In this document: piece by piece, positions 3,526 through 30,206 of the stretch
Position numbering within the stretch: position 1 is the first letter of the stretch
How the letters are laid out: each line of letters starts with the position of its first letter
Origin: Celeribacter marinus
GTDB taxonomy: Bacteria > Pseudomonadota > Alphaproteobacteria > Rhodobacterales > Rhodobacteraceae
Reading direction: 5' to 3'
Assembly (NCBI RefSeq): GCF_001308265.1
Contig: NZ_CP012023.1
Coordinates: 2,246,932 to 2,310,931, forward strand
DNA: 64,000 bases
Notes under the pieces: generated by a model
The model's database searches: none
Told to the model about the DNA's origin: nothing
What the model saw: the letters and a program-made list of their open reading frames with translations, nothing else
Program-made: the position numbers and the translations under genes

Positions 3526-4400
3526 TGGCACGGTCCTACCGCCGCTCTTCATGGGCCAACGGGCTATTTGCCCTGCCCTTTCTCATCTTCTTTGTCGTCC
3601 TTCTCGTGTTTCCACTGATCTGGGGCATGTGGTTGTCCCTCAATAAAGTCGACCTGTTTGGTGGCGCGCAATTTATCGGCCTCAAAAACTATTCTCCCGT
3701 GCTCAAAGATCCCGTTTTTGCCCAAGCGGTACGCAACACGGTGTTGTTCGTTGCGGTATCAGTCCCGACATTGGTGACCCTTGGCCTGTTCCTCGCCCTC
3801 GCGTTGAACAAGGCCTCTCGCGGGTCGTCCTTTCTGCGCGGCTTGTTCTTTTCGTCCTCCATCCTGTCGGTCACGATCGTCACCTTGATCTGGCGGATCG
3901 TGTTTATCCCCGGAGACGGGCTTATGTCTGTGATATTTGACCATTTCGGTTGGGCGCAAATCGGCTTTTTGTCCGAACGCGGATGGTCGTTGTTCTCGGT
4001 CGGCGTGGCGACCGTGTGGTGGAGCCTCGGCCTGCCCATGATCTTGATCCTTGCGGCGTTGCAACAGATCCCCAAAGACCTCTATGAGGCCGCAGCCCTC
4101 GACAACGCCTCCAAATGGCGTGGCCTTACGCGTATCACCCTCCCCTCGATCAAAGGCACGTTGGCGATGGTCGCGATCATTCAGATTGTTTTGCAATTCC
4201 AACTGTTTGGACAGGCACAATTGATGACCAATGGCGGCCCTGCGGGATCATCGCGCCCCATCGTGATGTATATCTATGAAACGGGGTTTGTGCGGTGGGA
4301 AATCGGTATGGGCACCGCCGCATCCGAAATCCTGTTCCTCATCATATTGGCCGCCGCAATGGTCCAATATTGGCTCTCAACCCGCAAAGAGGAGCAGTGA
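3525..4400 (+). CDS. CUT1 sugar ABC transporter permease (MalF type)
   Basis: This 291-residue inner-membrane protein has about six hydrophobic segments, the first at residues 15-35. The EAA loop, which contacts the ATPase, reads YEAAALDNASKWRGLTRITLP near residues 187-207. The family imports mono- and oligosaccharides with a second permease and a periplasmic binding protein. The start overlaps the ATPase stop by one base, and the second permease begins two bases after this stop, so the three are translated together. Substrate is inferred as an arabinoside from the neighbouring GH51 gene. Confidence 0.88.
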   Translation: MARSYRRSSWANGLFALPFLIFFVVLLVFPLIWGMWLSLNKVDLFGGAQFIGLKNYSPVLKDPVFAQAVRNTVLFVAVSVPTLVTLGLFLALALNKASRGSSFLRGLFFSSSILSVTIVTLIWRIVFIPGDGLMSVIFDHFGWAQIGFLSERGWSLFSVGVATVWWSLGLPMILILAALQQIPKDLYEAAALDNASKWRGLTRITLPSIKGTLAMVAIIQIVLQFQLFGQAQLMTNGGPAGSSRPIVMYIYETGFVRWEIGMGTAASEILFLIILAAAMVQYWLSTRKEEQ

Positions 4401-4402
4401 TT

Positions 4403-5245
4403 ATGGCGCGCCCTTACGATCCCGATACGTTTACTGCGCACAGACGCCTGTTTTGGATATCTGCCGTCTTTGCGGTGATCATGCTTGCCCCTGTCGCATG
4501 GATTGTCGGGTTATCGTTCAAGGATAACGCGGAGCTGATGGTGGGCACACAATCTGTGTTCTCGCCCCCCTACACGCTGGCCAACTATGTCAACATATTC
4601 AAATCCAGCTCGGTCTTTGGGTGGCTGTGGAACTCGATCATCGTGGCCACGGGACAAACGATTGGGGTGCTGATCTTGTCGTCTATGGCCGGCTATGCGT
4701 TTGCCCGTCTTGAATTTCCCTTTCGCAAAACGTTGTTCATCATTGTGCTGTTTGGTTTGGCCGTTCCCGAACAGGCGATCATTATCGCGCGCCACCAAAT
4801 GTTTAATTGGTTCGCCCTGCATAATACCTATCTGGGCTTGATCCTTCCGGGGATGTCATCCGCATTTGGCGTCTATTTGATGACACAGTTTTTTCGGGCG
4901 ATTCCCAAGGAAATTGACGAGGCGGCATTGCTTGATAATGCATCGGCGTGGCGCATTTTCTGGAAAGTCCTTTTGCCGCTCACGCTGCCTGCACAGGCGA
5001 CACTCGGTATCTTTACCTTTTTGATGGCGTGGAACGATTACTGGTGGCCCCTCATCTCCGCGACCAAAAAAGAGATGTTCACACTGACCATCGGCATCGC
5101 GTCCAGCCAGTCCAATTTCGCTCAGTCAGAGGGCTTGGGCTTTTTGACCGCGCAGGCGGTGTTTGCCTCGCTGCCCGTGGTGGTCGTCTACATTTTCTTT
5201 CAGCGCCACATCGTGACCGCTGTCTCGGGCGGCGCGGTGAAATAG
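4403..5245 (+). CDS. CUT1 sugar ABC transporter permease (MalG type)
   Basis: This permease has 280 residues when started at the ATG at 4403, just after the preceding TGA and behind the purine-rich GAGGAGCAG. The frame is open further upstream, but that would overlap the first permease by about 100 bp. MalG features are the N-terminal transmembrane helix (FAVIMLAPVAWIVGLSF), the EAA loop IDEAALLDNASAWRIFWKVLLPL and the C-terminal FFQRHIVTAVSGGAVK ending. It forms the heterodimeric channel with the preceding permease. The binding protein gene follows after a 94-bp gap. Confidence 0.88.
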   Translation: MARPYDPDTFTAHRRLFWISAVFAVIMLAPVAWIVGLSFKDNAELMVGTQSVFSPPYTLANYVNIFKSSSVFGWLWNSIIVATGQTIGVLILSSMAGYAFARLEFPFRKTLFIIVLFGLAVPEQAIIIARHQMFNWFALHNTYLGLILPGMSSAFGVYLMTQFFRAIPKEIDEAALLDNASAWRIFWKVLLPLTLPAQATLGIFTFLMAWNDYWWPLISATKKEMFTLTIGIASSQSNFAQSEGLGFLTAQAVFASLPVVVVYIFFQRHIVTAVSGGAVK

Positions 5246-18479: not shown

Positions 18480-18924
18480 GAAAGGTGGTAGACGCCACGC
18501 GCCAGACGGTCGGTTGGTTGTAGTCGCTCACGCCCAAAGAGTAAAACCATGAGCCGCACCCCATTCGCCTGTCTGGACGGCACAGTGTCGTCACGGCCCC
18601 CAACGCGAATCCACAAGCGGCGCTTGCGCGCCTTGATACCCGTGTAAGTGCTTGGGCGGCGCGCATTACTTTGGTGACTCGGAGGGGCGGCGTCAGACTC
18701 CTAGGCAACGGAGACGGCCAGATTCTAGATTCGCGGCCAAATGCGCGACCCGTTCCACAGTAGCCTTTAGACACAAAAATTTCCCCTACACCTTCTTCGT
18801 TCACGAAGGTGTAGGGGAAATAAGGACTATACAGACCGCATAACACTCACGAATTCGGAGCCGTTCAGCAGGTCTGTTGATTTACGTAAGCTAGCGCAAA
18901 GGCCGCCCACGCAAGCGCGGTAGG
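18480..18924. other. Intergenic region between rlmF and rpsU
   Basis: These 445 bases hold the rpsU terminator hairpin (18779-18821). No convincing gene was found. One open frame on the minus strand (18382-18846) overlaps rlmF, crosses the hairpin and has no recognisable motif. The part from 18480 to 18760 is unassigned. Confidence 0.5.
18779..18821 (-). terminator. Long intrinsic terminator downstream of rpsU
   Basis: A perfect 17-bp stem (left arm ATTTCCCCTACACCTTC at 18779-18795, right arm 18805-18821) encloses a 9-base loop. On the minus strand the stem is followed by TTTTTGTGTC, a U-tract, so it fits termination of the rpsU transcript about 100 bases after its stop codon. The stem is longer than usual. 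Confidence 0.8.
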
Positions 18925-19125
18925 TTACCCTTCGCGCTCTGCCTTTTTGCGCGCCAGTTTACGCTGACGGCTCACGGCTTCTTTCTTTTCGCGCGCTTTG
19001 CGCACGGAAGGCTTTTCAAAGTACTCTTTGAGCCTCATTTCACGAAATACACCTTCACGTTGCAGCTTTTTCTTGAGCGCACGTAGAGCTTGATCGACGT
19101 TGTTGTCGCGAACACTGACTTCCAT
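18925..19125 (-). CDS. rpsU: 30S ribosomal protein S21
   Basis: The 66-residue protein is the family's normal length when started at the ATG at 19125 ([20 protein letters not shown]). The open frame continues upstream for 49 codons without family similarity, so the longer form is rejected. It has [18 protein letters not shown] and a lysine/arginine-rich tail. S21 sits on the small subunit platform and helps initiation. The gene ends in a strong terminator and lies just outside the left boundary of the integrative element. Confidence 0.95.
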
Positions 19126-19395
19126 TTGAATTCTGCCATCTTTCCTGAATTGATTTGCGGAATTGTGCAGGAAAGCGGGGATGAGATCAAACGAAATCGT
19201 ACCAATCGGAGCCATTATACCCGTTTGAGCCAAAAATTGTGCGCTACCACCAAGGGTAATACAAAAAATCAAGCCGCGAGCGCGTCAATATGGACCTAAA
19301 GCAGCAGTGACACTGGAGGGGCTGCTGTTGCAACGCCAAGAGAGGACCACAATGGAACCGCAGTCTTTAATTTGAGTGGGTTTCAACAAAAATCA

Positions 19396-19411
19396 AATGG
19401 CGGAGGCTCAG
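19396..19411. repeat. Left attachment site, copy of tRNA-Ser 3' end
   Basis: AATGGCGGAGGCTCAG is identical to 38263-38278, which is the acceptor-stem 3' end of tRNA-Ser including its CCA. The similarity stops sharply on both sides, as expected for the crossover duplication made by a tyrosine integrase. No other part of a tRNA is present here. Confidence 0.88.
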
Positions 19412-19556
19412 ACCGCCAGCGTTACATTCGCAACGCATCGGCAACATCCGCAACATTTTGAAAACAATCACTTTAAAGCTTTCTCTTGTTCGCCGTCATT
19501 CGCTGCAGTACGGTGAAAGTCGCGATGCATTGGGGGAAGAAAAGGGGGAAGCTCAA

Positions 19557-20852
19557 ATGGGGGACGATACGGTCGAAGCCAAAGGCGGCGGGCTGACAGT
19601 GGCCAAGGTGAAAACTGCCAAGCCCGGCAAGTATCACGACGGCGCAGGCACCGGCCTATTCTTGCGCGTGGATCCTAACGGCGGGCGCTTTTGGATTCAG
19701 CGCGTGACCATTCATGGCAAGCGACGAGAGATTGGCCTCGGTGGCTTCCCCATCGTCGGGCTGGCAGATGCGCGCAAGGCAGCACTCGCCAACAAGCAGC
19801 TAGCCTATAGCGGTGGCGACCCCCTAGCCGAACGTCGGAAGGCGCGCGAAACGCTTTCCTTCGCGGACGCGGTCGACCGCTACCTTTCCGTAAAGCTGGA
19901 TGAGTTTAGGAACGACAAACATCGCAAGCAGTGGCGCGCGACGCTCGACACATACGCCCGCCCTGTGCTGGGGGATATGCCTGTGCGCTCAGTCGGCGTC
20001 TCCGATGTGCTGCGTGCCGTGCAACCGATCTGGTCAGACAAGACGGAAACCGCCTCGCGGCTGCGCGGGCGCATTGAAAACGTGCTGTCTTGGGCAACGG
20101 TGGCCGGGCATCGCGAAGGGCCAAATCCTGCCCGATGGAAGGGCAATCTATCAGAACTCCTTCCCAAGGCCGCGAAAGTGGCGAAGTCCGAAAATCAACC
20201 CGCTTTGGCGTTGACCGATGTCGCGGGCTGGTGGTCTGATCTGGCTCAGCGCGACGGCATGGCTGCCCGGGCTTTGGAGTTCCTCACCCTTACTGCTGCC
20301 CGCTCGGGCGAAGTGCGGGGCATGACGTGGGACGAGGTCGACTTTGGGCTACAAAGCAAAGCCGACACACAGCCTAGCGGGGCTTGGACGATCCCCGCTT
20401 CGCGAATGAAGAACGGGCGTGAGCATCGCGTCCCATTGACGAAAGAGGCGGTGGCGCTGCTAGAGTCGCTCCCTCGGCTGGAGGATAGCCCATTCGTTTT
20501 CTTCGCCCCGCGTGGTGGGGCATTGTCCGACATGAGCATTTCAGCCGTTATGCGGCGGATGCAGGAAACCGAAGTTAAGGCAGGTCGTGCTGGCTGGCTC
20601 GACCCCAAGAACAAGCGCCCAGCCGTGCCGCACGGTTTACGCTCGACCTTCCGGCAATGGGCAGCGGAGCGTGGCCACCCCCGCGAAATGGCAGAAATGG
20701 CCTTGGCGCACTTCATCGGCTCGGAAGTGGAGCGGGCCTATCAGCGTTCTGACATGCTGGACCGTCGGCGCGCGATGATGGCAGATTGGGCTGATTTCCT
20801 GCGCGGTAAAGCTGTAGCTAGCAACGTGGTAAAGATGGGAGAAGTCGGATGA
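19557..20852 (+). CDS. int: Tyrosine integrase, P4/DUF4102 type
   Basis: It catalyses site-specific integration and excision. The protein is 431 residues from ATG 19557, chosen because AGGGGGAAG lies just upstream; an open frame reaches back to 19458 without family similarity. The N-terminal DUF4102 arm-binding domain has AKPGKYHDGAGTGLFLRV and GKRREIGLGGFP. The catalytic residues are R249 (TAARSGEVRG), H359 and R362 (PHGLRSTFR), H385 (ALAHF) and nucleophile Y395 (AYQRSD). All are present, so the enzyme looks active. It sits 146 bp inside the left att copy, at the end away from the tRNA gene. It overlaps the next gene by four bases. Confidence 0.93.
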   Translation: MGDDTVEAKGGGLTVAKVKTAKPGKYHDGAGTGLFLRVDPNGGRFWIQRVTIHGKRREIGLGGFPIVGLADARKAALANKQLAYSGGDPLAERRKARETLSFADAVDRYLSVKLDEFRNDKHRKQWRATLDTYARPVLGDMPVRSVGVSDVLRAVQPIWSDKTETASRLRGRIENVLSWATVAGHREGPNPARWKGNLSELLPKAAKVAKSENQPALALTDVAGWWSDLAQRDGMAARALEFLTLTAARSGEVRGMTWDEVDFGLQSKADTQPSGAWTIPASRMKNGREHRVPLTKEAVALLESLPRLEDSPFVFFAPRGGALSDMSISAVMRRMQETEVKAGRAGWLDPKNKRPAVPHGLRSTFRQWAAERGHPREMAEMALAHFIGSEVERAYQRSDMLDRRRAMMADWADFLRGKAVASNVVKMGEVG

Positions 20853-21295
20853 AACGGGATGAATACCCAACTTTTCTCGATTGGTGGGCTGCCAACGAAG
20901 TAGAATATTGCGCGCTCACCGATGCACAGGACGGGAACCCTACCACTTTAGCAGATCTGATACGCTCGGTTGGAACCCTAAAAACGCGGGAGGCCAGGGA
21001 ATTCATTGCGGATCGACTGGAAGGCAAGAAAAAGCGGAGAGGAAATAAGCGTACAATTGCACAGCAAGCCAAAGAGCTGGGCATCCTCGGAATGGTCCGG
21101 GAGATTCAGTTAGAACTTGGATGTGCCGAATACCATGCACTTGGGATTTTCTTGGACCGCTATCCCAATGAGTGCGGCAATAATCTAGACACTTTAAGGA
21201 CGTACATTAGAAGAGCAAAAGCCACAAGCAAGGCTGCGGTCGGCCGTGAGCCACCACCAGTGGTTCAGAAAAGACGAAATTCTGAACCTGAATAA
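20849..21295 (+). CDS. Hypothetical protein of the element
   Basis: The 148-residue soluble protein is not recognised. The start ATG overlaps the integrase stop (ATGA), so it is probably co-expressed. Visible features are an acidic/aromatic N-terminus (TFLDWWAANEVEYCALTD), a basic block KKKRRGNKRT at residues ~69-78, and a lysine/proline-rich tail. There is no signal peptide or membrane segment. The basic block would suit nucleic-acid binding, but this is only suggestive. Position between integrase and alpA points to a role in element maintenance. Confidence 0.7.
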   Translation: MKRDEYPTFLDWWAANEVEYCALTDAQDGNPTTLADLIRSVGTLKTREAREFIADRLEGKKKRRGNKRTIAQQAKELGILGMVREIQLELGCAEYHALGIFLDRYPNECGNNLDTLRTYIRRAKATSKAAVGREPPPVVQKRRNSEPE

Positions 21296-21352: not shown

Positions 21353-21538
21353 ATGACCAACGAAATTCTGCGCAAACCGCGCGTTCTCGCACTCATCGGC
21401 ATTGGGAACACTTCCCTGTATGCCGCAATCAAGCGCGGAGACTTTCCTGCACCGGTGAAGCTTGGTGTGCGTGCCGTCGGCTGGCGACGCTCGGACATCG
21501 AGAACTGGCTGGCCAGTCGCGAAACCAAGGTCACTTGA
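21353..21538 (+). CDS. alpA: AlpA-family small DNA-binding regulator / excisionase-like
   Basis: This 61-residue protein is one MerR-like winged helix: LRKPRVLALIGIGNTSLYAAIKRG with the recognition helix, then FPAPVKLGVRAVGWRRSDIENWLASR. The family in phage P4-like and CP4-57-like elements activates integrase expression or helps excision. It lies between the integrase and the replicase genes, the usual place. The stop is followed immediately by the next gene (ATG at 21540). Confidence 0.88.
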   Translation: MTNEILRKPRVLALIGIGNTSLYAAIKRGDFPAPVKLGVRAVGWRRSDIENWLASRETKVT

Positions 21539-21539
21539 T

Positions 21540-21893
21540 ATGAGTGGCCGGCAAATAAAAACTCCGGTGCGCGGGCAAGCGCAACCCGAGCAGGATAACC
21601 GCTTTGCGACTGCGGCGGGCGTCCCCTCACACCGTGAAAAAGACGATAGTTATCGTTCGGTGATCGTACGGCTCGCGCCACGCTGGCGCGTCATCCTATG
21701 TAAGGATCGCGCTCAGTGGATCATCCAATATCGCACGGCTGACCCTTTGCACCGGGGCGTTTGGCGAGGGCGCGTGTATGTGACGACCAAAGACAGCCTC
21801 ATCCGCTCCTGTGCAAGGCTAGGATGCCGGTCAGGGTCGTCCGTGACGGCCATCCTCTCGGCCCTGCCTGATCGAATTGGGGGCGAAGCATGA
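21540..21893 (+). CDS. Hypothetical protein upstream of the replicase
   Basis: The 117-residue protein starts at ATG 21540, directly behind the alpA stop; the frame is open further upstream, but that would overlap alpA. The middle contains VRLAPRWRVILCKDRAQWIIQYR, a short beta-rich stretch, and the C-terminus is helical. No known domain is recognised. The stop overlaps the start of the prim-pol gene by four bases, so translation is coupled with the replicase. Confidence 0.7.
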   Translation: MSGRQIKTPVRGQAQPEQDNRFATAAGVPSHREKDDSYRSVIVRLAPRWRVILCKDRAQWIIQYRTADPLHRGVWRGRVYVTTKDSLIRSCARLGCRSGSSVTAILSALPDRIGGEA

Positions 21894-24241
21894 AAGATCA
21901 ATCGTCAGCCGAGACCGCAATCGACAAAGCCAAAGCGATGATTGAAGGCGGCTGGCGCATTGTGCCAATTCTGCCCAAGCAAAAACGGCCCGCCCACACT
22001 GGTTGGACAGAACGCGAGTTCACCTCGGAGGACTTTCGGCCAGACAGCGGCATTGGAATTGTCACGGGTCAGGGTATCGTGGCTCTGGATGTGGACGCCT
22101 ATTGCGAGGACGTGAGCGCGGCTATCGTAACGGAAGCCATGCGGCGTTTCGGCGCCACGCTAGAGCGCGTCGGGCACCCCCCCAAGACGGCGCTGTTCTA
22201 TCGTGGTCTCGACATCAAGAAACGCGACGTCACGCTCAAGCCGACTGGCAAAGCGCCCAATGGCAAGCAAGAGAAGCTCGAAGTGCTTGGCAACGGCCAG
22301 CAAATCGTGGCCTTCGGAATTCACCCAGACACTGGCCAACCCTACAAATGGAGAGACCTGAAGCCGTGGGACACGTTTGTGGGTGGAGTTGATGATTTGT
22401 TGCCTGAGATCACCCAAGCGGGGTTGGACGATTTCCTTGATTGGGTCGCCGCTGAATACGGCGAACAACGCAAGCTTTCACAACGGGCCGCGCCAATGAT
22501 GGTAGCCTCTGCCGCTCGTGGTTGGGGGGAAACCGCTCTGTCAAACGAGACCGCTGAACTGGTCAGAACGCCCGAAGGCGACCGAAACAACGCGCTCAAT
22601 ACAGCCGCCTTCCGCATGGGCCAGATTGTCGGTGGCGGTCACTTGGACGAGGACGAAGCGGTGGCCGCGTTAAAACAGGCGGCATTGCAGATGGGCTTGG
22701 AGGCTCGCGAGATCCACCCCACGATCAAGAGTGGTCTGACCGCAGGGAAGAGTGAGCCGAGGCACCCCGAAAACCGCGCAGCAGAAGCCCATCTGGACGC
22801 CAAAACAACAAAGGACGCCGATCGGATTGCTAAGCGTATCAAAGACGGCCTGAAAGCCGTTTTGGCAGAAGTCGGAATCAAAGTCGACGCCATTGCCGTT
22901 GATGCCGAGCGCGTCGGGAAGATGATAGGTCGGTCGTTCTGGTCCGCGTCTCAATCGAAGCTTCACTTTCTTAACCGAGAGGGTCACTTGGTCAAATTCA
23001 CTCAATCTGAAGGCTGGAAGTTCTTGCTGGCTACATTCGGCTCGCCAATCGATCCAGATGACGTCAACGAGTGGGTGTCGCAAGTCATACCTAAGGATCA
23101 GAAAGCGGTGGAAAAGTGCCTGAGGGCAGCCATTCGTGCACCAGTCATGGATCACATCCTCCTGTATCGGCAGCGAGATATGATTGCATGGGCCGTGGAT
23201 ATGTTTGCGACTCATGAGGTATTCGTATTGCGCGAAAATGACGCCCAGATTGTCCTACCCCACATACCGTGGATGACCGGACCAATCGAAATGCTCTACA
23301 TAGATGACTTTCGTACTCACTGGCCTGACGTTGATCAGGTGCTAAAATTCATCATTGACACGCGTTTTGCAGGGGATCGCAAGAAGGCCTACCTTTGGTG
23401 GCAAGCCGACTCTGACTTCGGTAAAGGCCTGTTTACGGGTCTTCTCAAGGACCTTGGGGTGGTGGTTGAAACATCAACAAAGGAAATCGAGAAAGTGATG
23501 GAGGGCCAGCCCGTGGGCTTGAGCGCCGACAACTTCAAGCGGGCGATTGTCTTGCTTGTGGACGAGTTCAAGTCGGTTAAATCCGAGCTGAAGCAGCTTC
23601 AGAACGAGATCGAGTTGTCGCCCAAGAACCAACTGCGCCAACGGGCGGCGATCTACACAAAGCTGTTCATGAGCGCGGAAAACGTGGCCAGCCTTGTGAC
23701 CTCCCACGGGGTCGAGGACCAGTTTGCGAACCGGATGAGCTTCATCGAGAACTCCGGTCGGATTGATGATCGCCCAGTCTTTGCTGCAAACAAGTCGGCC
23801 TACGCGGTAAACCTGCGGAACTGGATAGCCCTAACCCTCAATCAGCACGTCGAAGAATACCGCAAGTTAGGCAGCAGCGGGGCCGTCACTGTTGCAGATG
23901 CAGCTGTGACAGCGTTTCATGCCAGCCGGGGGATCGGCAAGCAGCTGGGGCGAGTGTCTGAAAGCCTATACCAGATCGCGGACGCCTTCCGCGAAGCGAT
24001 GCTTAACAAGGACCACGATTTCAGTCCTGATGTCATAAACCTGACCAATGGTGGCGTCGGGTTAATTCGCCCGCGCAAACTGTTCGAAGATTGGCTGGCC
24101 GACAATTACGACCAGTCGGAGCGCATGACGTTCGTGAAAAAGGCGAAGAACGTTCTTGCCCTCGCCAGTAGGGATGGCGAAGTTAAAGTTCGGCTCACAT
24201 CAGACCGGAAGTCGGTCAAGTGCCTTCTCCTGAAGGAATAA
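21890..24241 (+). CDS. Replicase: prim-pol domain fused to a superfamily 3-like helicase
   Basis: The 783-residue protein is probably the replication initiator of the element. Residues 1-190 are a bifunctional primase/polymerase domain: WRIVPILPKQKRPAHTGW, metal-binding D67 and D69 (VALDVDAY), HPPKTALFYRG and EVLGNGQQIVAFG. Residues ~228-285 (GDRNNALNTAAFRMGQIV) look like a PriCT region. The C-terminal half is helicase-like with P-loop ADSDFGKG (K512) and Walker B IVLLVDEF (D558, E559). The usual serine/threonine after the P-loop lysine is glycine here. Domain order resembles P4 alpha and related satellite replicases. The iteron array begins 55 bp after the stop codon. Confidence 0.88.
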   Translation: MKDQSSAETAIDKAKAMIEGGWRIVPILPKQKRPAHTGWTEREFTSEDFRPDSGIGIVTGQGIVALDVDAYCEDVSAAIVTEAMRRFGATLERVGHPPKTALFYRGLDIKKRDVTLKPTGKAPNGKQEKLEVLGNGQQIVAFGIHPDTGQPYKWRDLKPWDTFVGGVDDLLPEITQAGLDDFLDWVAAEYGEQRKLSQRAAPMMVASAARGWGETALSNETAELVRTPEGDRNNALNTAAFRMGQIVGGGHLDEDEAVAALKQAALQMGLEAREIHPTIKSGLTAGKSEPRHPENRAAEAHLDAKTTKDADRIAKRIKDGLKAVLAEVGIKVDAIAVDAERVGKMIGRSFWSASQSKLHFLNREGHLVKFTQSEGWKFLLATFGSPIDPDDVNEWVSQVIPKDQKAVEKCLRAAIRAPVMDHILLYRQRDMIAWAVDMFATHEVFVLRENDAQIVLPHIPWMTGPIEMLYIDDFRTHWPDVDQVLKFIIDTRFAGDRKKAYLWWQADSDFGKGLFTGLLKDLGVVVETSTKEIEKVMEGQPVGLSADNFKRAIVLLVDEFKSVKSELKQLQNEIELSPKNQLRQRAAIYTKLFMSAENVASLVTSHGVEDQFANRMSFIENSGRIDDRPVFAANKSAYAVNLRNWIALTLNQHVEEYRKLGSSGAVTVADAAVTAFHASRGIGKQLGRVSESLYQIADAFREAMLNKDHDFSPDVINLTNGGVGLIRPRKLFEDWLADNYDQSERMTFVKKAKNVLALASRDGEVKVRLTSDRKSVKCLLLKE

Positions 24242-24295
24242 GCCCCACCGCGCCTGCTGGGCCACCCGCCGCGGTGGCTCAGTTCGTTGCCAATG

Positions 24296-24560
24296 ATTAC
24301 CTCTGATTACCTCGATATTACCTCCATATTACCTCCATATTACCTCCATATTACCTGAAAAATCGTTTAAAAACAGTATGATTACCTGATTACCTCTGAT
24401 TTCTATTTTTGGGATAAAAGAAGAAGAAATAAGAGAAGAGTAGTACCGCCGCTGCGGCAACTGGAAAATACAGGTAATCAAGGTAATCAAGGTAATCACA
24501 TTGAATTTAAAGGGCTTTTTTTGCCATCTTGAGGTAATCGAGAGATAATCAAGAGGTAAT
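24296..24560. repeat. Iteron array, candidate replication origin of the element
   Basis: ATTACCT occurs eight times in forward orientation (starts 24296, 24306, 24317, 24328, 24339, 24350, 24381, 24389). Five exact inverse copies AGGTAAT follow (24472, 24481, 24490, 24532, 24554), with one variant AGATAAT at 24543. Several forward copies are 11 bp apart, about one helical turn. Between the clusters lies a purine-rich, A-rich stretch (about 24405-24440) and a small stem (GCCG CTG CGGC). Two inverted iteron clusters beside a prim-pol/helicase gene fit a replication origin, as in P4 ori/crr. Function is inferred. Confidence 0.75.
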
Positions 24561-24845
24561 CACTCTCCCCTTGGCCCACTGCCGCGCCGCCATTCAGGCG
24601 TAGGATACAAAACCCCAAAACAGGCATTTGAAGATATGACTTGGAAAATGGCCGCATAGGGTCAATAATCAAACTGTTCGGAAACAGGGACGAACTTCAT
24701 CGCCCACGGCGGCAAAAAAAGATACGGCCCCGTCAAATTGGGGGCTTCACAGTAAAGAGATAGCCTACAAGTAACACAGCCAGCTAGCAGGGCGAGCCTT
24801 GCGCGCGCACGCAAGGACCTCCTCCCCGCTGTAAAATAAAAATCC
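24561..24845. other. Non-coding gap between iterons and cargo
   Basis: No gene is seen. The only structure is a 7-bp hairpin (CCTTGCG 24797-24803, CGCAAGG 24810-24816) that could follow the aldo/keto reductase transcript, but it lacks a U-tract. The stretch marks the border between the replication backbone and the catabolic cargo. Confidence 0.5.
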
Positions 24846-25895
24846 TCAGGTTGAAGAAGATGCTAGAGCTAGCTCAGCTGTTCCGAAGCGTGGTGATGCA
24901 AACTGCTGCTGATGCCAGAGAGGGTAAACCTGAGCTGGCCGGCTGACAGCATCTAACCGGCTCAGATCATCGGCGGAGAGTGTGAGCGAAACTGCACGAA
25001 AGTTATTCTGGAACTGTGCTACCGATGTGCCGCCGACGATCAAAGAGGCCACAGCGGGGCGTGTCAAAGTCCAGGCGAGTGCCACTTGCGCAGCTTCAAC
25101 CTCGTGGGCGATTGCGATATCGGTCAACACATCGACGATGTTCCAAAGTCGATCGTAGTCACGGATTGGCGGTTCGCTCCAGCCCCGGTCCTGACGGCTT
25201 TCCGGGGCAACGGGCTGCTTACGTGTGTGCTTGCCACTCAGCAATCCCGCGGCCAATGGACTCCATACCGTTACACCAACCCCCTGATCAACCGAAAGCG
25301 GAAGCAACTCATATTCCGCTTCGCGTGCTTCGAGCGTATAATGAATCTGCTGGGTCACGAATCGTTGAAAATTACATCGCTCTGACGCCATCAGGGACTT
25401 CATGATCTGCCATCCGGTGTAATTCGAGCACCCAGCGTAGCGGATTTTTCCCTGACGGATCAAGGTATCAAGAGCTTCCATCGTCTCTTCGACAGGCGTC
25501 TGACCATCCCATTCGTGAATGTGATAAATATCAATATGATCGCGCCGCAAACGCTTCAGCGAGCGTTCGCATTCGCGGATAAGATGCCAGCGGCTAGCGC
25601 CTTCGTCATTGGGACCATCGCCGATCCGCATCCGCGCTTTGGATGAAATCAGAAGGTCGGGACTACGATCTGCAAGAACCTCGCCCACAATCTCTTCGGA
25701 TAGGCCGGTCGAATACATGTTTGCCGTGTCGATAAGATTGACGCCGTGATCGGTACAGCAGTCGATTAAGCGAGCAGCATCTGGCACGTCCTGACTGGCG
25801 ATGGCACCGAATGGACCCCGGCCCCCGAAGGAAAACGTGCCCATGGCCAGCGTTGAGACCTTTAGGCCAGTGCGCCCAAGCGTGCGATATTCCAT
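24846..25895 (-). CDS. Aldo/keto reductase
   Basis: The 349-residue NADPH-type oxidoreductase has an (alpha/beta)8 barrel. It starts with EYRTLGRTGLKVSTLAMGTF, and the catalytic tetrad is visible: D56 and Y61 (LIDTANMYSTG), K86 (ISSKAR) and H127 (IHEWD). It belongs to the YhdN/IolS-like branch by overall look. Such enzymes interconvert sugar aldehydes or ketones and alcohols. It is the last gene of the seven-gene minus-strand cargo operon, 28 bp after dhaL, so it probably acts on the transported sugar or polyol or on a product of it. Exact substrate is unknown. Confidence 0.85.
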   Translation of the reverse strand: MEYRTLGRTGLKVSTLAMGTFSFGGRGPFGAIASQDVPDAARLIDCCTDHGVNLIDTANMYSTGLSEEIVGEVLADRSPDLLISSKARMRIGDGPNDEGASRWHLIRECERSLKRLRRDHIDIYHIHEWDGQTPVEETMEALDTLIRQGKIRYAGCSNYTGWQIMKSLMASERCNFQRFVTQQIHYTLEAREAEYELLPLSVDQGVGVTVWSPLAAGLLSGKHTRKQPVAPESRQDRGWSEPPIRDYDRLWNIVDVLTDIAIAHEVEAAQVALAWTLTRPAVASLIVGGTSVAQFQNNFRAVSLTLSADDLSRLDAVSRPAQVYPLWHQQQFASPRFGTAELALASSST

Positions 25896-25923
25896 TGTTA
25901 GTTCTTCCCTTCAGACGCCAAGA

Positions 25924-26577
25924 TCAAACGGCTTGCGCCGCATCGCCATTTACGAATTGTGCCATCGTGTCGATCAGAATGACCGCCACCGTGCTGCCCG
26001 CGTCTTGAATGCCGCGAGTCTTTTCTTGAAATGCTGCGGCCTTGCCACGCTGCGCCACAAGATCCTTGCCCTCTTCCAAGGCCGTCACCGCCCGTGTGTG
26101 AGCTGCCGTCAGAGCGGCAGACAAGGGAATGCCGGCTTCTGCCTGCGCGGTCATGGTGTCGGCGATCGGATGAAGCACATCCAAAACGGTCTTGTCGCCG
26201 ACCTGGGCCCGCCCACGTTGGGCAACACCTTCACAAAAAGCAGTCCAGAAATGGGCCAGTTCTAATGTGCCAAGCGCGTCTTGATCCTTGGCTGCAACCG
26301 ATCCGCGCATGAATCCCGTGGCCATCAGGGTGCCCATTGTAGACGGCGCGGCGCGGGCGATGGCTGCCCCAGCAGTTTTCAACTGCTTTTCGATCGGAGC
26401 GTCATTCAGATCGGCGACCGCGGCGCTTGCCGCGGCAAATCCCTTAGCCATTGTCAGGCCAAGATCGCTGTCGCCGACCTTGCCGTCTAAGGCGATCAGC
26501 GCCTCTTTCTGCTCGGCAAAGACAGTTGCAAACCGGGCAAACATGCCCGGGATATCTTTTGCTGTTAGGGTATCCAT
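25924..26577 (-). CDS. dhaL: DhaL-type ATP-binding subunit of a dihydroxyacetone/tetrulose kinase
   Basis: The 217-residue helical-barrel protein binds ADP/ATP-Mg and passes phosphate to the ketose held by DhaK. The three metal-binding aspartates are D31, D36 and D38 (DGKVGDSDLGLTM). The common GDGDHG motif is GDSDLG here, with leucine replacing histidine. Also seen are APSTMGTL and GRAQVGDKTVLDVL. It follows dhaK by 10 bp. No DhaM phosphotransferase gene is present, so it probably uses ATP directly. Families with this split arrangement include kinases for dihydroxyacetone and for erythrulose; the sequence does not decide. Confidence 0.88.
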   Translation of the reverse strand: MDTLTAKDIPGMFARFATVFAEQKEALIALDGKVGDSDLGLTMAKGFAAASAAVADLNDAPIEKQLKTAGAAIARAAPSTMGTLMATGFMRGSVAAKDQDALGTLELAHFWTAFCEGVAQRGRAQVGDKTVLDVLHPIADTMTAQAEAGIPLSAALTAAHTRAVTALEEGKDLVAQRGKAAAFQEKTRGIQDAGSTVAVILIDTMAQFVNGDAAQAV

Positions 26578-26587
26578 GGTGCCTCTC

Positions 26588-27589
26588 TTAACGCGCGATG
26601 TGTTTAAAGAACGGTGTGTTGGCTCCGACGGCGATCAGCGGCTCCAATTCGTCATCCAACTGCAGGACAGAAATCGAGGCACCGGCCATTTCCATTGATG
26701 TCGCATATTCACCGATAAAGACGTGACGGATGTTCGCACCTGCCTTTTCCAGCACCTGCGCCGTACGGCGGTAGATGACGTAAAGCTCCTCCAACGGCGT
26801 TGCACCAAGGCCGTTGATCAAGACAGCAACGTCTTTTTCCGTATCATAGGATTGCTCGGCAAGGACGCGCTCCATCATCTCATCGACCAATGCATCGGCC
26901 GGGGTCAGCTTTTTTCGCGTGATACCCGGCTCACCGTGGATACCCATGCCGATCTCCATCTCGTCCGCGCCGATTTCGAAGCTGGGCTTACCCACCTCGG
27001 GCACAATGCATGGCGAGAGCGCCACACCGATGGTGCGGGTACGTGCGCTGGCTTTCTCTGTCAGGCGCACGACCTCAGCCAAAGGCTTCATTGCGGAGGC
27101 GGCGGCTCCTGCCACTTTGTATAGAAAGACAATACCAGCCACACCACGACGCTTATGCTCTTCGCCGACGACGGACGACGCAACATCATCACGACCCACT
27201 ACCGTGGCGGTTTCGATCCCTTCGAGGTCGGCCAGTTCGCCCGCCATGTCAAAGTTCATTAGATCGCCGCTATAATTCCCATAAAGATAAAGGACGCCCG
27301 CGCCCTGATCAACGTAGCGGGTCACCTCCAGCACCTGTTCCGACGACGGGGATTGGAAAACGCCCCCGACCCCTGCACCGTCAAGCATGTTGTCGCCAAC
27401 GTACCCCAGAAACAGGGGCAAGTGGCCCGAACCGCCACCTGTTACAATGGCGACCTTGCCCTTTACCGGAGTCGTGCGGACGTAGCAGTGCAGGTCTTCA
27501 CCGACGTGGGTTACTTCGGGGTGCGCGAGATAGATGCCTTCCAGCATTTCGTCGACGAAATTTTCAGGATTATTGATAAATTTTTTCAT
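26588..27589 (-). CDS. dhaK: DhaK-type ketose-binding subunit of a dihydroxyacetone/tetrulose kinase
   Basis: DhaK binds the short ketose covalently as a hemiaminal on a histidine. The product is 333 residues from ATG 27589 (MKKFINNPENFVDEML); a longer open frame upstream lacks similarity and enters the permease. Key residues are H56 in TGGGSGHLPLF, D109 in YSGDLMNFDM and the covalent H218 in MGIHGEPG. All match the functional family. It follows the permease gene by 14 bp and precedes dhaL. It differs clearly from the fused DhaKL at 53.6-55.4 kb, so it is not a recent duplicate. Confidence 0.9.
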   Translation of the reverse strand: MKKFINNPENFVDEMLEGIYLAHPEVTHVGEDLHCYVRTTPVKGKVAIVTGGGSGHLPLFLGYVGDNMLDGAGVGGVFQSPSSEQVLEVTRYVDQGAGVLYLYGNYSGDLMNFDMAGELADLEGIETATVVGRDDVASSVVGEEHKRRGVAGIVFLYKVAGAAASAMKPLAEVVRLTEKASARTRTIGVALSPCIVPEVGKPSFEIGADEMEIGMGIHGEPGITRKKLTPADALVDEMMERVLAEQSYDTEKDVAVLINGLGATPLEELYVIYRRTAQVLEKAGANIRHVFIGEYATSMEMAGASISVLQLDDELEPLIAVGANTPFFKHIAR

Positions 27590-27603
27590 TGGTTTCTCCG
27601 GTA

Positions 27604-28662
27604 TCAGTATTTTATTTTGCGGTCCCGCAGGACAAAAAAGGCGGCTGCCATCAGGATGAAGGCACCAACGACGACCCGCTGCCATGTGCTTGGGATGCCA
27701 ACGAGGACCAGCACGTTGTTCACCACTGTCACGAGGAAAACACCGATTACGGTGCCCAGAACTGACCCCGTGCCCCCTGTAATCCGTGCGCCGCCTAGTA
27801 TGACGGCGGCGATAACGCCGATCTCAGTGCCTGCGAAATCGAAGGGGTTAGCCATGCGGTTGGCGCTGGCCTGAATGACACCGGCCATGCCGGCCAAAGC
27901 ACCAGCAAACGCGAAGGCAAAGACATTGACCGTCCGCAGATTATAACCGAGGCGACTCGCGACCTGCGCATTGCCGCCGACGGCGAAGATTGCACGGCCC
28001 ATTAGTGTCCGGTTGAACACGAACCATGTAAGAAAGGCGGCCAGTGGGAAACTAAGGAAGTAGACTGGCAGGCTGACGGTCACCCCGCTGTTCGCCGTGA
28101 TGTCGATGAGTGACCATTTGCCGAAGGCTACCATTTGTGAAGGCAATTCCATCAGCCAGACCGTCCCAATACAAACAAGAAGGATGCCGCGATAGAAATA
28201 TTGAGTACCGATGGTGACGATCAGCGCGGGAGCTTTCAGGCCATGGACCAAAACTCCGTTGATGGCACCCAGAACTGTCCCAACAAGCACCGATAAGACG
28301 ATGATCAGTGCCATAGGCATATCCGGAAATACGTCGAGGACCAGTTTGCTAATGCCGTACATTGCAAGCGCTCCGATGGCGGGGAAGGACACATCGATCC
28401 CCCCTGCTGCTAGAACAGTGAATACACCTAATGCGAAAAGACCCGTCACCACGCTGGCGCGCCCCATGTCGATCAGGGACGAAGCCTGCAAAAACGAAGG
28501 ATTGATGACCGCGACTGCGACGCAGATGATCACCAGTAACAAAAGGCTCGCCGACTCTGGGTAGCGTTGCAAGAAGACGAATGGACTTTTCGAAACGGTG
28601 ACCTGCGCATCAAGTTTAGGAGTCTTTTGGTTCTTGTCGGTCATTGTCTGCACCACCGTCAT
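27604..28662 (-). CDS. CUT2 sugar ABC transporter permease (RbsC type)
   Basis: The 352-residue permease has about nine or ten hydrophobic helices and the family stretches FAVGGNAQVASRLGYN and LGGARITGGTGSVLGT. The start ATG overlaps the ATPase stop by four bases. With the second permease at 31374-32384 it makes the channel of the cargo importer. The fold is that of ribose, erythritol and autoinducer-2 importers; specificity comes from the binding protein and is unknown. Confidence 0.87.
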   Translation of the reverse strand: MTVVQTMTDKNQKTPKLDAQVTVSKSPFVFLQRYPESASLLLLVIICVAVAVINPSFLQASSLIDMGRASVVTGLFALGVFTVLAAGGIDVSFPAIGALAMYGISKLVLDVFPDMPMALIIVLSVLVGTVLGAINGVLVHGLKAPALIVTIGTQYFYRGILLVCIGTVWLMELPSQMVAFGKWSLIDITANSGVTVSLPVYFLSFPLAAFLTWFVFNRTLMGRAIFAVGGNAQVASRLGYNLRTVNVFAFAFAGALAGMAGVIQASANRMANPFDFAGTEIGVIAAVILGGARITGGTGSVLGTVIGVFLVTVVNNVLVLVGIPSTWQRVVVGAFILMAAAFFVLRDRKIKY

Positions 28663-30206
28663 TCTGCTGCCTCGCGCTGGTTTGCGAGCATGGATTGATA
28701 GATGCGATCCTCGTCAACCTGAGCCGCAACAAGATCCTCAACGATGCGTCCTGCGTTCATCACAAGGATCCGGTCGCAATTCTGAAGAAGTTCGGGCAGA
28801 TCGTCAGAAATAATCAACAGCCCAATACCGCGCTGCGCCATCTCTTGAATCGCATGAAAAATCGTCTCTTTAGAGCCAACGTCGACACCAACAGTTGGCC
28901 CATGCAGAATCAGAAGACGTGGATTAATACTAAGCCAACGGCCGATTAAGACCCGCTGCTGGTTGCCACCTGACAGCGCCCCAACCGGCAGGTCGATGTC
29001 TACGGTGTTCAGCTTCATGCCGGCCGAAATTTCGCGGGCTGCGGCGCGGCCCTTCTTGTCGTCGATCATGCCGGACTTGCGCGAGATCCGGTCAAGGATC
29101 AGCGGCACCTCGTTTTCATAGATCGATTTTTCGATGAATAGGCCCTCGGCCAAGCGATCTTCGGGTACATAACCGATGCCATGCGCGATCGCCTCTGCGG
29201 GCGACCCTACGCGGATCTGCTCACCTTCCAGCGTTACCGTCCCGCTTTGGATCGGAATATGCCCAGCCAGCGCCAGCGCCAGTTCGTTGCGGCCAGAATC
29301 GGACAGACCAGTGATGCCAAGGATTTCGCCGTGCTTCAGGCTAAAGCTAATCTCACGGAAGCTGTGACCAGCATTCAGGTTTTTCGCCTCTATTAAGACC
29401 GTATCGTCAGGGGTCCCCGTGCGATAACGTACTGAATCGATGGAACGTCCTGTCATCAGTTCTGCTAACTGACTGCGACTATAGTTTTCCAATGGCCCCT
29501 GCGCGACGCTCAGGCCATCGCGAAAGACGATCGCCTCGCCGCCAATCCGGTAACATTCTTCCAGCTTATGAGTCACGAACAGTACAGCCACGTTGTTATT
29601 CAACAAGCGCCCCACCACTTCGATCAATGCCTCGACCTCGTGACGTGTTAGTGACGTCGTTGGTTCGTCCATGATTACAAGGCGCGCCTCGGCGGCGATG
29701 GCGCGCGCGATGGCGACACGTTGGCGGATTGCCAGCGGCAGGTCAGATACAATACGACCCAGCAACGCCTTATCCGGATCAAGGCCGACCTGGCGCAATG
29801 CCTTTACCGCAGTGGTCTCGATCCGCTTGCGATCCAGCATACGTAGCAGGCGCCCTTTTCCCGCAACAAGCTGTTCGCCTAATGCCACATTCTCAGCCAC
29901 AGAGAGGTTCGGCAGCAAGGACAGGTCTTGATAGACGGTCTCTATCCCGGCCTCCAAGGCCGCCATCGGTGTCAGATGAGCGATTTGCTTGCCGTCGAGG
30001 AAGATGTCGCCTTCGGAAGGTGCGTGCGCGCCCGACATGATCTTGATGACAGTGCTTTTGCCGCAGCCGTTTTCGCCAAGTAGATGATAGGCTTTGCCCT
30101 CTTGGATTGTCAGATCTACGCCGGACAGGGCATGAACACCCCCGAACCGCTTATGAATTCCACGAAGTTCGAGAAAGGGAGTGGTATTGGTAGATTGTTC
30201 AGTCAT
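28659..30206 (-). CDS. CUT2 sugar ABC transporter ATPase (RbsA type)
   Basis: The product has 515 residues when started at ATG 30206 (MTEQSTNTTPFLELRG), preceded by CGGAGC; twelve further codons upstream are open but less likely. Two ABC domains are seen: first Walker A GENGCGKST and Walker B LVIMDEPTTSL; second degenerate P-loop TGLSDSGRNEL, signature LSGGNQQRVLIGRWL. The second Walker B reads LILHGPTVGVD, where the usual aspartate-glutamate pair is replaced by HG. It energises the cargo importer. A stem-loop precedes the gene. Confidence 0.88.
   Translation of the reverse strand: MTEQSTNTTPFLELRGIHKRFGGVHALSGVDLTIQEGKAYHLLGENGCGKSTVIKIMSGAHAPSEGDIFLDGKQIAHLTPMAALEAGIETVYQDLSLLPNLSVAENVALGEQLVAGKGRLLRMLDRKRIETTAVKALRQVGLDPDKALLGRIVSDLPLAIRQRVAIARAIAAEARLVIMDEPTTSLTRHEVEALIEVVGRLLNNNVAVLFVTHKLEECYRIGGEAIVFRDGLSVAQGPLENYSRSQLAELMTGRSIDSVRYRTGTPDDTVLIEAKNLNAGHSFREISFSLKHGEILGITGLSDSGRNELALALAGHIPIQSGTVTLEGEQIRVGSPAEAIAHGIGYVPEDRLAEGLFIEKSIYENEVPLILDRISRKSGMIDDKKGRAAAREISAGMKLNTVDIDLPVGALSGGNQQRVLIGRWLSINPRLLILHGPTVGVDVGSKETIFHAIQEMAQRGIGLLIISDDLPELLQNCDRILVMNAGRIVEDLVAAQVDEDRIYQSMLANQREAAE

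Follow-up and report, generated by a model that had tools for sequence, protein, structure and literature searches.

A probable iteron-based replication origin behind the Prim-Pol/helicase gene of a small integrated element in Celeribacter marinus

The stretch of Celeribacter marinus chromosome analysed here (64 kb, referred to below as the window) carries a tyrosine integrase gene, two short open reading frames and a replicase gene, all on the forward strand, followed by a dense cluster of ATTACCT heptamers organised in two opposed arms around a common centre. In each arm, an outer array stepping at 10-11 bp is joined by an inner set of tandem copies stepping at 8-9 bp, and the features, in window positions, are as follows:

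19458..20852, + strand: tyrosine integrase (Arm-DNA-bind_3, Phage_int_M and Phage_integrase; Pfam E 1e-26 and 7e-13)
20849..21295, + strand: ORF of 148 aa without family match, overlapping the integrase stop
21462..21893, + strand: ORF of 143 aa without family match, overlapping the replicase start
21890..24241, + strand: replicase of 783 aa, with N-terminal Prim-Pol, SF3-type helicase and C-terminal domain
24242..24294, + strand: GC-rich spacer that may form a hairpin (-22.8 kcal/mol), though without significance (z -1.5)
24295..24356, + strand: left outer array of six ATTACCT copies, five of which keep an 11 bp step
24380..24395, + strand: left inner pair of (G)ATTACCT copies at a distance of 8 bp
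24396..24471, no strand: central segment of 76 bp, 61% AT and 63% purine, GC-rich at about 24442-24461
24472..24497, - strand: right inner set of three AGGTAAT copies, each 9 bp from the next
24498..24531, no strand: AT-rich spacer containing ATTGAATTTAAAGGGCTTTTTTT
24532..24561, - strand: right outer array, AGGTAATC twice plus the variant AGATAATC, at 11 bp steps

The true translation start of the integrase may lie further in than annotated. Only the two short ORFs separate it from the replicase, and the 143 aa one has a distant relative near a Prim-Pol gene in another genome (L010 in G148, 32% over 83 aa). An RNA methyltransferase gene and rpsU form the left flank and an aldo/keto reductase gene the right flank, and the next gene past the cluster (24846-25895) is oriented toward the iterons. 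From integrase to heptamer cluster, the region has the appearance of an integrative element reduced to a minimum, about 5 kb long. The rpsU (bS21) gene adjoining the integrase, at 18925-19272, is a second copy, the other being found at 1265163 in the genome; in genome G402 a similar rpsU copy has an integrase-like ORF (L035) about 1.8 kb away. The gap separating the RNA methyltransferase gene from rpsU holds a perfect inverted repeat of 17 bp (18779-18821; loop of 9 bp) that resembles a terminator. The Celeribacter marinus genome encodes another Prim-Pol ORF, 787 aa long (L002, G000:C1:53636), and the locus examined there showed no iteron cluster.

The heptamer cluster spans 24296-24560 and comprises 13 exact copies, eight forward (24296, 24306, 24317, 24328, 24339, 24350, 24381 and 24389) and five inverse (24472, 24481, 24490, 24532 and 24554), as well as a single-mismatch copy, AGATAATC, at 24543. 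All of the copies counted in a preliminary description of the DNA, made from the sequence alone, could thus be located exactly, and the 11-bp period that it ascribed to several of them holds for five (24306-24350). Because the replicase stop ends at 24241, the first iteron lies 54 bp behind it, which confirms the placement described there and shortens the distance given, 55 bp, by one. The segment described as A/purine-rich is likewise recovered between the two arms (24396-24471), with the correction that it is interrupted by its GC-rich part. Also borne out is the statement that the heptamers far exceed chance: about 0.01 copies are expected in 265 bp against the 13 found. Across the whole window ATTACCT occurs 20 times, 13 of them inside the cluster, against 2.4 expected and a maximum of 7 in 100 dinucleotide shuffles of the 64 kb. 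The commonest 7-mer of the 601 bp stretch 24242-24842 reaches 13 copies against a mean of 2.6 and a maximum of 5 in 200 shuffles, and a search for rival 7-mer clusters across the window returned none comparable, the runner-up having 5 copies. A chance origin of the cluster is excluded. The sole other double occurrence of ATTACCT in the genome, at 768673, was considered as a second origin-like locus and rejected, being a single pair that we take as chance.

The protein encoded directly upstream combines a Prim-Pol (AEP) domain at residues 14-156 (PF09250, E 8e-15) with an SF3-type AAA+ helicase at residues about 430-690, and its C-terminal half matches the phage DNA primase family phrog_35045 (E 1e-82). 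The SF3 core is recognised by the GK of Walker A (G511/K512) and the acidic Walker B residue E559, all invariant in alignment A2, with the residue following the GK being G, D or another in the helicase family and not always S/T. Sequence searches of solved structures with the replicase, SaPI proteins included, gave no meaningful match. An AlphaFold2 model has good confidence over residues 300-783 and is poor N-terminal to that; within it, residues 337-782 are best matched by the C-terminal region of the NrS-1 polymerase (6lrb; Z 12.8, 347 aligned, rmsd 6.8), and there are further matches to poxvirus D5/E5, the SaPI5 primase-helicase (7ola/7om0), papillomavirus E1 and SV40 T antigen. Residues about 690-783 are predicted to form a winged-helix-like domain, for which the fold matches of the isolated model are weak (best Z 5.1).

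Relatives of the helicase half are scarce in genomes, with one, the sister integrative element G130, among 395 genomes of the same family and no further ones in 385 genomes of the class and 398 of the phylum at E 1e-15. They are present in Vibrio, Pseudoalteromonas and Thiohalocapsa phages, in small enterobacterial plasmids and in IMG/VR contigs. The preliminary description had proposed to look for iterons behind homologous replicases and took their absence as grounds for refutation. The comparison went the other way: nearly all relatives do carry arrays, which in most cases have two arms and follow the gene. In our own tally of 18 distinct origins of the helicase family (phages, plasmids and the sister element, near-identical records being counted once), 16 have a clear iteron cluster and 2, those of CP-T1-like phages and L062, a weak one. 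Most of the clustered origins share the two-armed geometry of the window, with a centre of 68-92 bp and differing iteron words. This layout is found behind the replicase in G130 (same family, related integrase, iteron CGCTACC), L055, L060, L063, phage AL and the plasmids L045, L019, L020 and L042, with inner pairs spaced 7-9 bp, and L061 and L059 have arrays similar to it; L018 and L041 show clear clusters of another geometry, and PHS21 and L058 have the array ahead of the replicase operon instead of behind the replicase. The words used across the family are ATTACCT, CGCTACC, GGTTACA, GGTTCCA, GGTAACA, GTTAACAG, ACCTCAC and GGGAACA. The enterobacterial plasmids have a string similar to ATTGAATTTAAAGGGCTTTTTTT at the corresponding place, and some relatives have clearer stem-loops than the window hairpin at the position directly behind the replicase.

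Additional dense repeat clusters were seen at replicase gene ends in two genomes of the same family, with the word CGGGACA at L066:2596-2747 and GGGCCAA at about 4750-4979 of L067 (reverse strand); these replicases, which carry PriCT_2 and an AAA_25 helicase, have only the Prim-Pol part in common with the window replicase. An E. coli plasmid whose name refers to KPC (L044) carries at 3608-4555 a truncated copy of the replicase, 315 aa long and followed by ars genes, and no iterons.

Since the element encodes a tyrosine integrase with an arm-binding domain, and since P4 has annotated attP arm repeats, the heptamers might be arm-type integrase sites at the right end of the element. We regard such attP arms as extremely unlikely here: the P4 arm repeats surround the att core beside int, whereas those of the window lie on the far side, behind the replicase; the relatives' plasmids with the same arrays, circular replicons of 11-14 kb, show no annotated tyrosine integrase; and 13 copies that face each other in two arms across an AT-rich middle resemble an origin.

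Further insight comes from natural variation among the relatives. In two independent pairs of near-identical replicases, the iteron word switches along with the C-terminal ~75-135 residues. The first sets five plasmids with GGTTCCA (13 copies) against three with GGTTACA (9 copies), and all of the residues that distinguish the groups fall within 330-505 of the 523 residues of the replicase. At the DNA level, L045 and L019 differ by 3 nt in the first 900 bp of the replicase gene, a single tract of divergence covers the C-terminal codons and the iterons, and near-identical flanks resume past the last iteron. The second opposes L055 (GGTTACA) to L061 (GGTAACA): their last 160 residues show 10 changes, 8 of which are concentrated in the final 76. 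The L061 replicase frame is broken at L061:1906 by a frameshift relative to L055, either real or an assembly error. Both swaps are correlations drawn from a small number of lineages, and either tract could stem from one recombination event. The co-variation of word and C-terminus makes the latter the likely iteron reader, in line with the part of the protein to which the preliminary description had pointed, and argues that the region is a replication origin. Iteron-reading C-terminal domains are exemplified by SaPI Rep and Cch2. We further propose, at slightly better than even odds, that the replicase C-terminus and the iterons constitute a transferable specificity cassette recombining as one block, such that the origin word would diversify and the two-armed geometry stay fixed.

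The same variation bears on whether the repeats could be operators through which a regulator, for example one encoded by either short ORF (143 aa or 148 aa), governs how the replicase or integrase is expressed. In favour of this reading, repressors can use iterated sites, and in iteron plasmids iteron binding often also autoregulates. Regulation by a separate protein is nonetheless very improbable given that the repeat word follows the replicase C-terminus in both swaps, that plasmids and phages carry arrays of differing words beside the same helicase family, and that the repeats lie behind the replicase and not before it, with the gene at 24846-25895 pointing toward them.

Together, these data support a reading of 24296-24560 as the origin from which a small integrated and presumably mobile element replicates, to which we assign a probability of about 0.88 on the strength of sequence comparison; the arrays of the relatives lend weight to the origin assignment made in the preliminary description. 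The central segment 24396-24471 is the likely melting region. By analogy with SaPI Rep, P4 alpha and SF3 helicases, from which the steps of binding, melting, helicase loading and priming are drawn, the C-terminal winged-helix-like domain would bind the iterons of both arms, and two helicase hexamers would assemble face to face across the AT/purine-rich centre of 76 bp, opening it and loading themselves there. The first primers would then come from the Prim-Pol domain, and the host replisome would copy the excised circle.

The origin anatomy could also be that of a stranded remnant that has lost replication and excision. Gene content is minimal, and neither att repeats nor an empty site were found where they were sought: no exact repeat longer than 9 bp is common to 18480-19600 and 24560-25200, and no 12-mer is shared with 25200-29000; 20 relatives yielded no empty site, their flanks being unconserved except for rpsU (with some matches inside the integrase gene), and a search via the neighbouring aldo/keto reductase found no such gene at E 1e-100 in 19 other genomes of the genus. 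On the other hand, the reading frames of integrase and replicase run uninterrupted from end to end and the iterons hardly vary (13 exact, one variant), which argues for recent selection, and we consider decay unlikely. An origin still in use would represent a compact, testable replicon within a bacterial chromosome.

The origin of the window is a further case of an already known kind, its plan matching that of published PICI origins. What was less expected is that plasmids, phages and integrative elements all have this plan, and that C-terminus and iterons seem to form a cassette. A helicase family without a Pfam helicase match appears to use a PICI-like origin plan in all three, and, were the cassette to hold true, this plan would be common to them beyond the PICIs for which it was stated in 2018 (PMC6092414). 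From the near-identical pairs whose words have switched, only a few residues emerge as the likely determinants of origin specificity. This has a bearing on plasmid incompatibility and on the means by which related elements sharing a cell avoid cross-firing.

In PICIs, two iteron sets flank an AT-rich region 3' of rep, an arrangement functional in E. coli for EcCICFT073 (PMC6092414), and the C-terminal domain of SaPI Rep reads iterons directly downstream (PMC7581432). The window origin has the same plan, with two iteron sets and an AT-rich middle immediately 3' of the initiator-helicase gene. It differs from PICIs in that the stretch from integrase to origin contains no gene recognised as a PICI gene for regulation, packaging or interference, and in that its layout is also found in ordinary small plasmids and phages.

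The likeness to the ori/crr pair of P4 proposed in the preliminary description holds for the origin reading and for the crr-like placement: the cis-required crr, with 8-bp repeats facing each other around a purine-rich stretch, begins 46 bp behind the alpha stop. P4 requires two loci, crr and an ori at a distance from it, whereas the window has a single cluster placed like crr, which brings it closer to the single origin of PICIs and SaPIs. The initiators differ as well, P4 alpha having Toprim, D5_N and Pox_D5 domains and the window replicase Prim-Pol; the latter gives no match to the TIGR01613, D5_N and Pox_D5 profiles, whereas P4 alpha does, and membership in the P4-alpha family was rejected for want of any detectable sequence relation (hhalign probability 0.2%). 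The crenarchaeal plasmid pRN1 likewise has a Prim-Pol and helicase replicase (ORF904), behind whose gene a putative origin also starts at 54 bp (PMC4234260); that origin element is a stem-loop of ~100 bp in which its authors could not find iterons (PMC4234260), in contrast to the iterons of the window. Finally, the NrS-1 polymerase, the PrimPol-helicase that matches the window replicase best in structure, belongs to a genome where the 8-nt recognition site is present in only two copies and not in arrays (PMC7102993).
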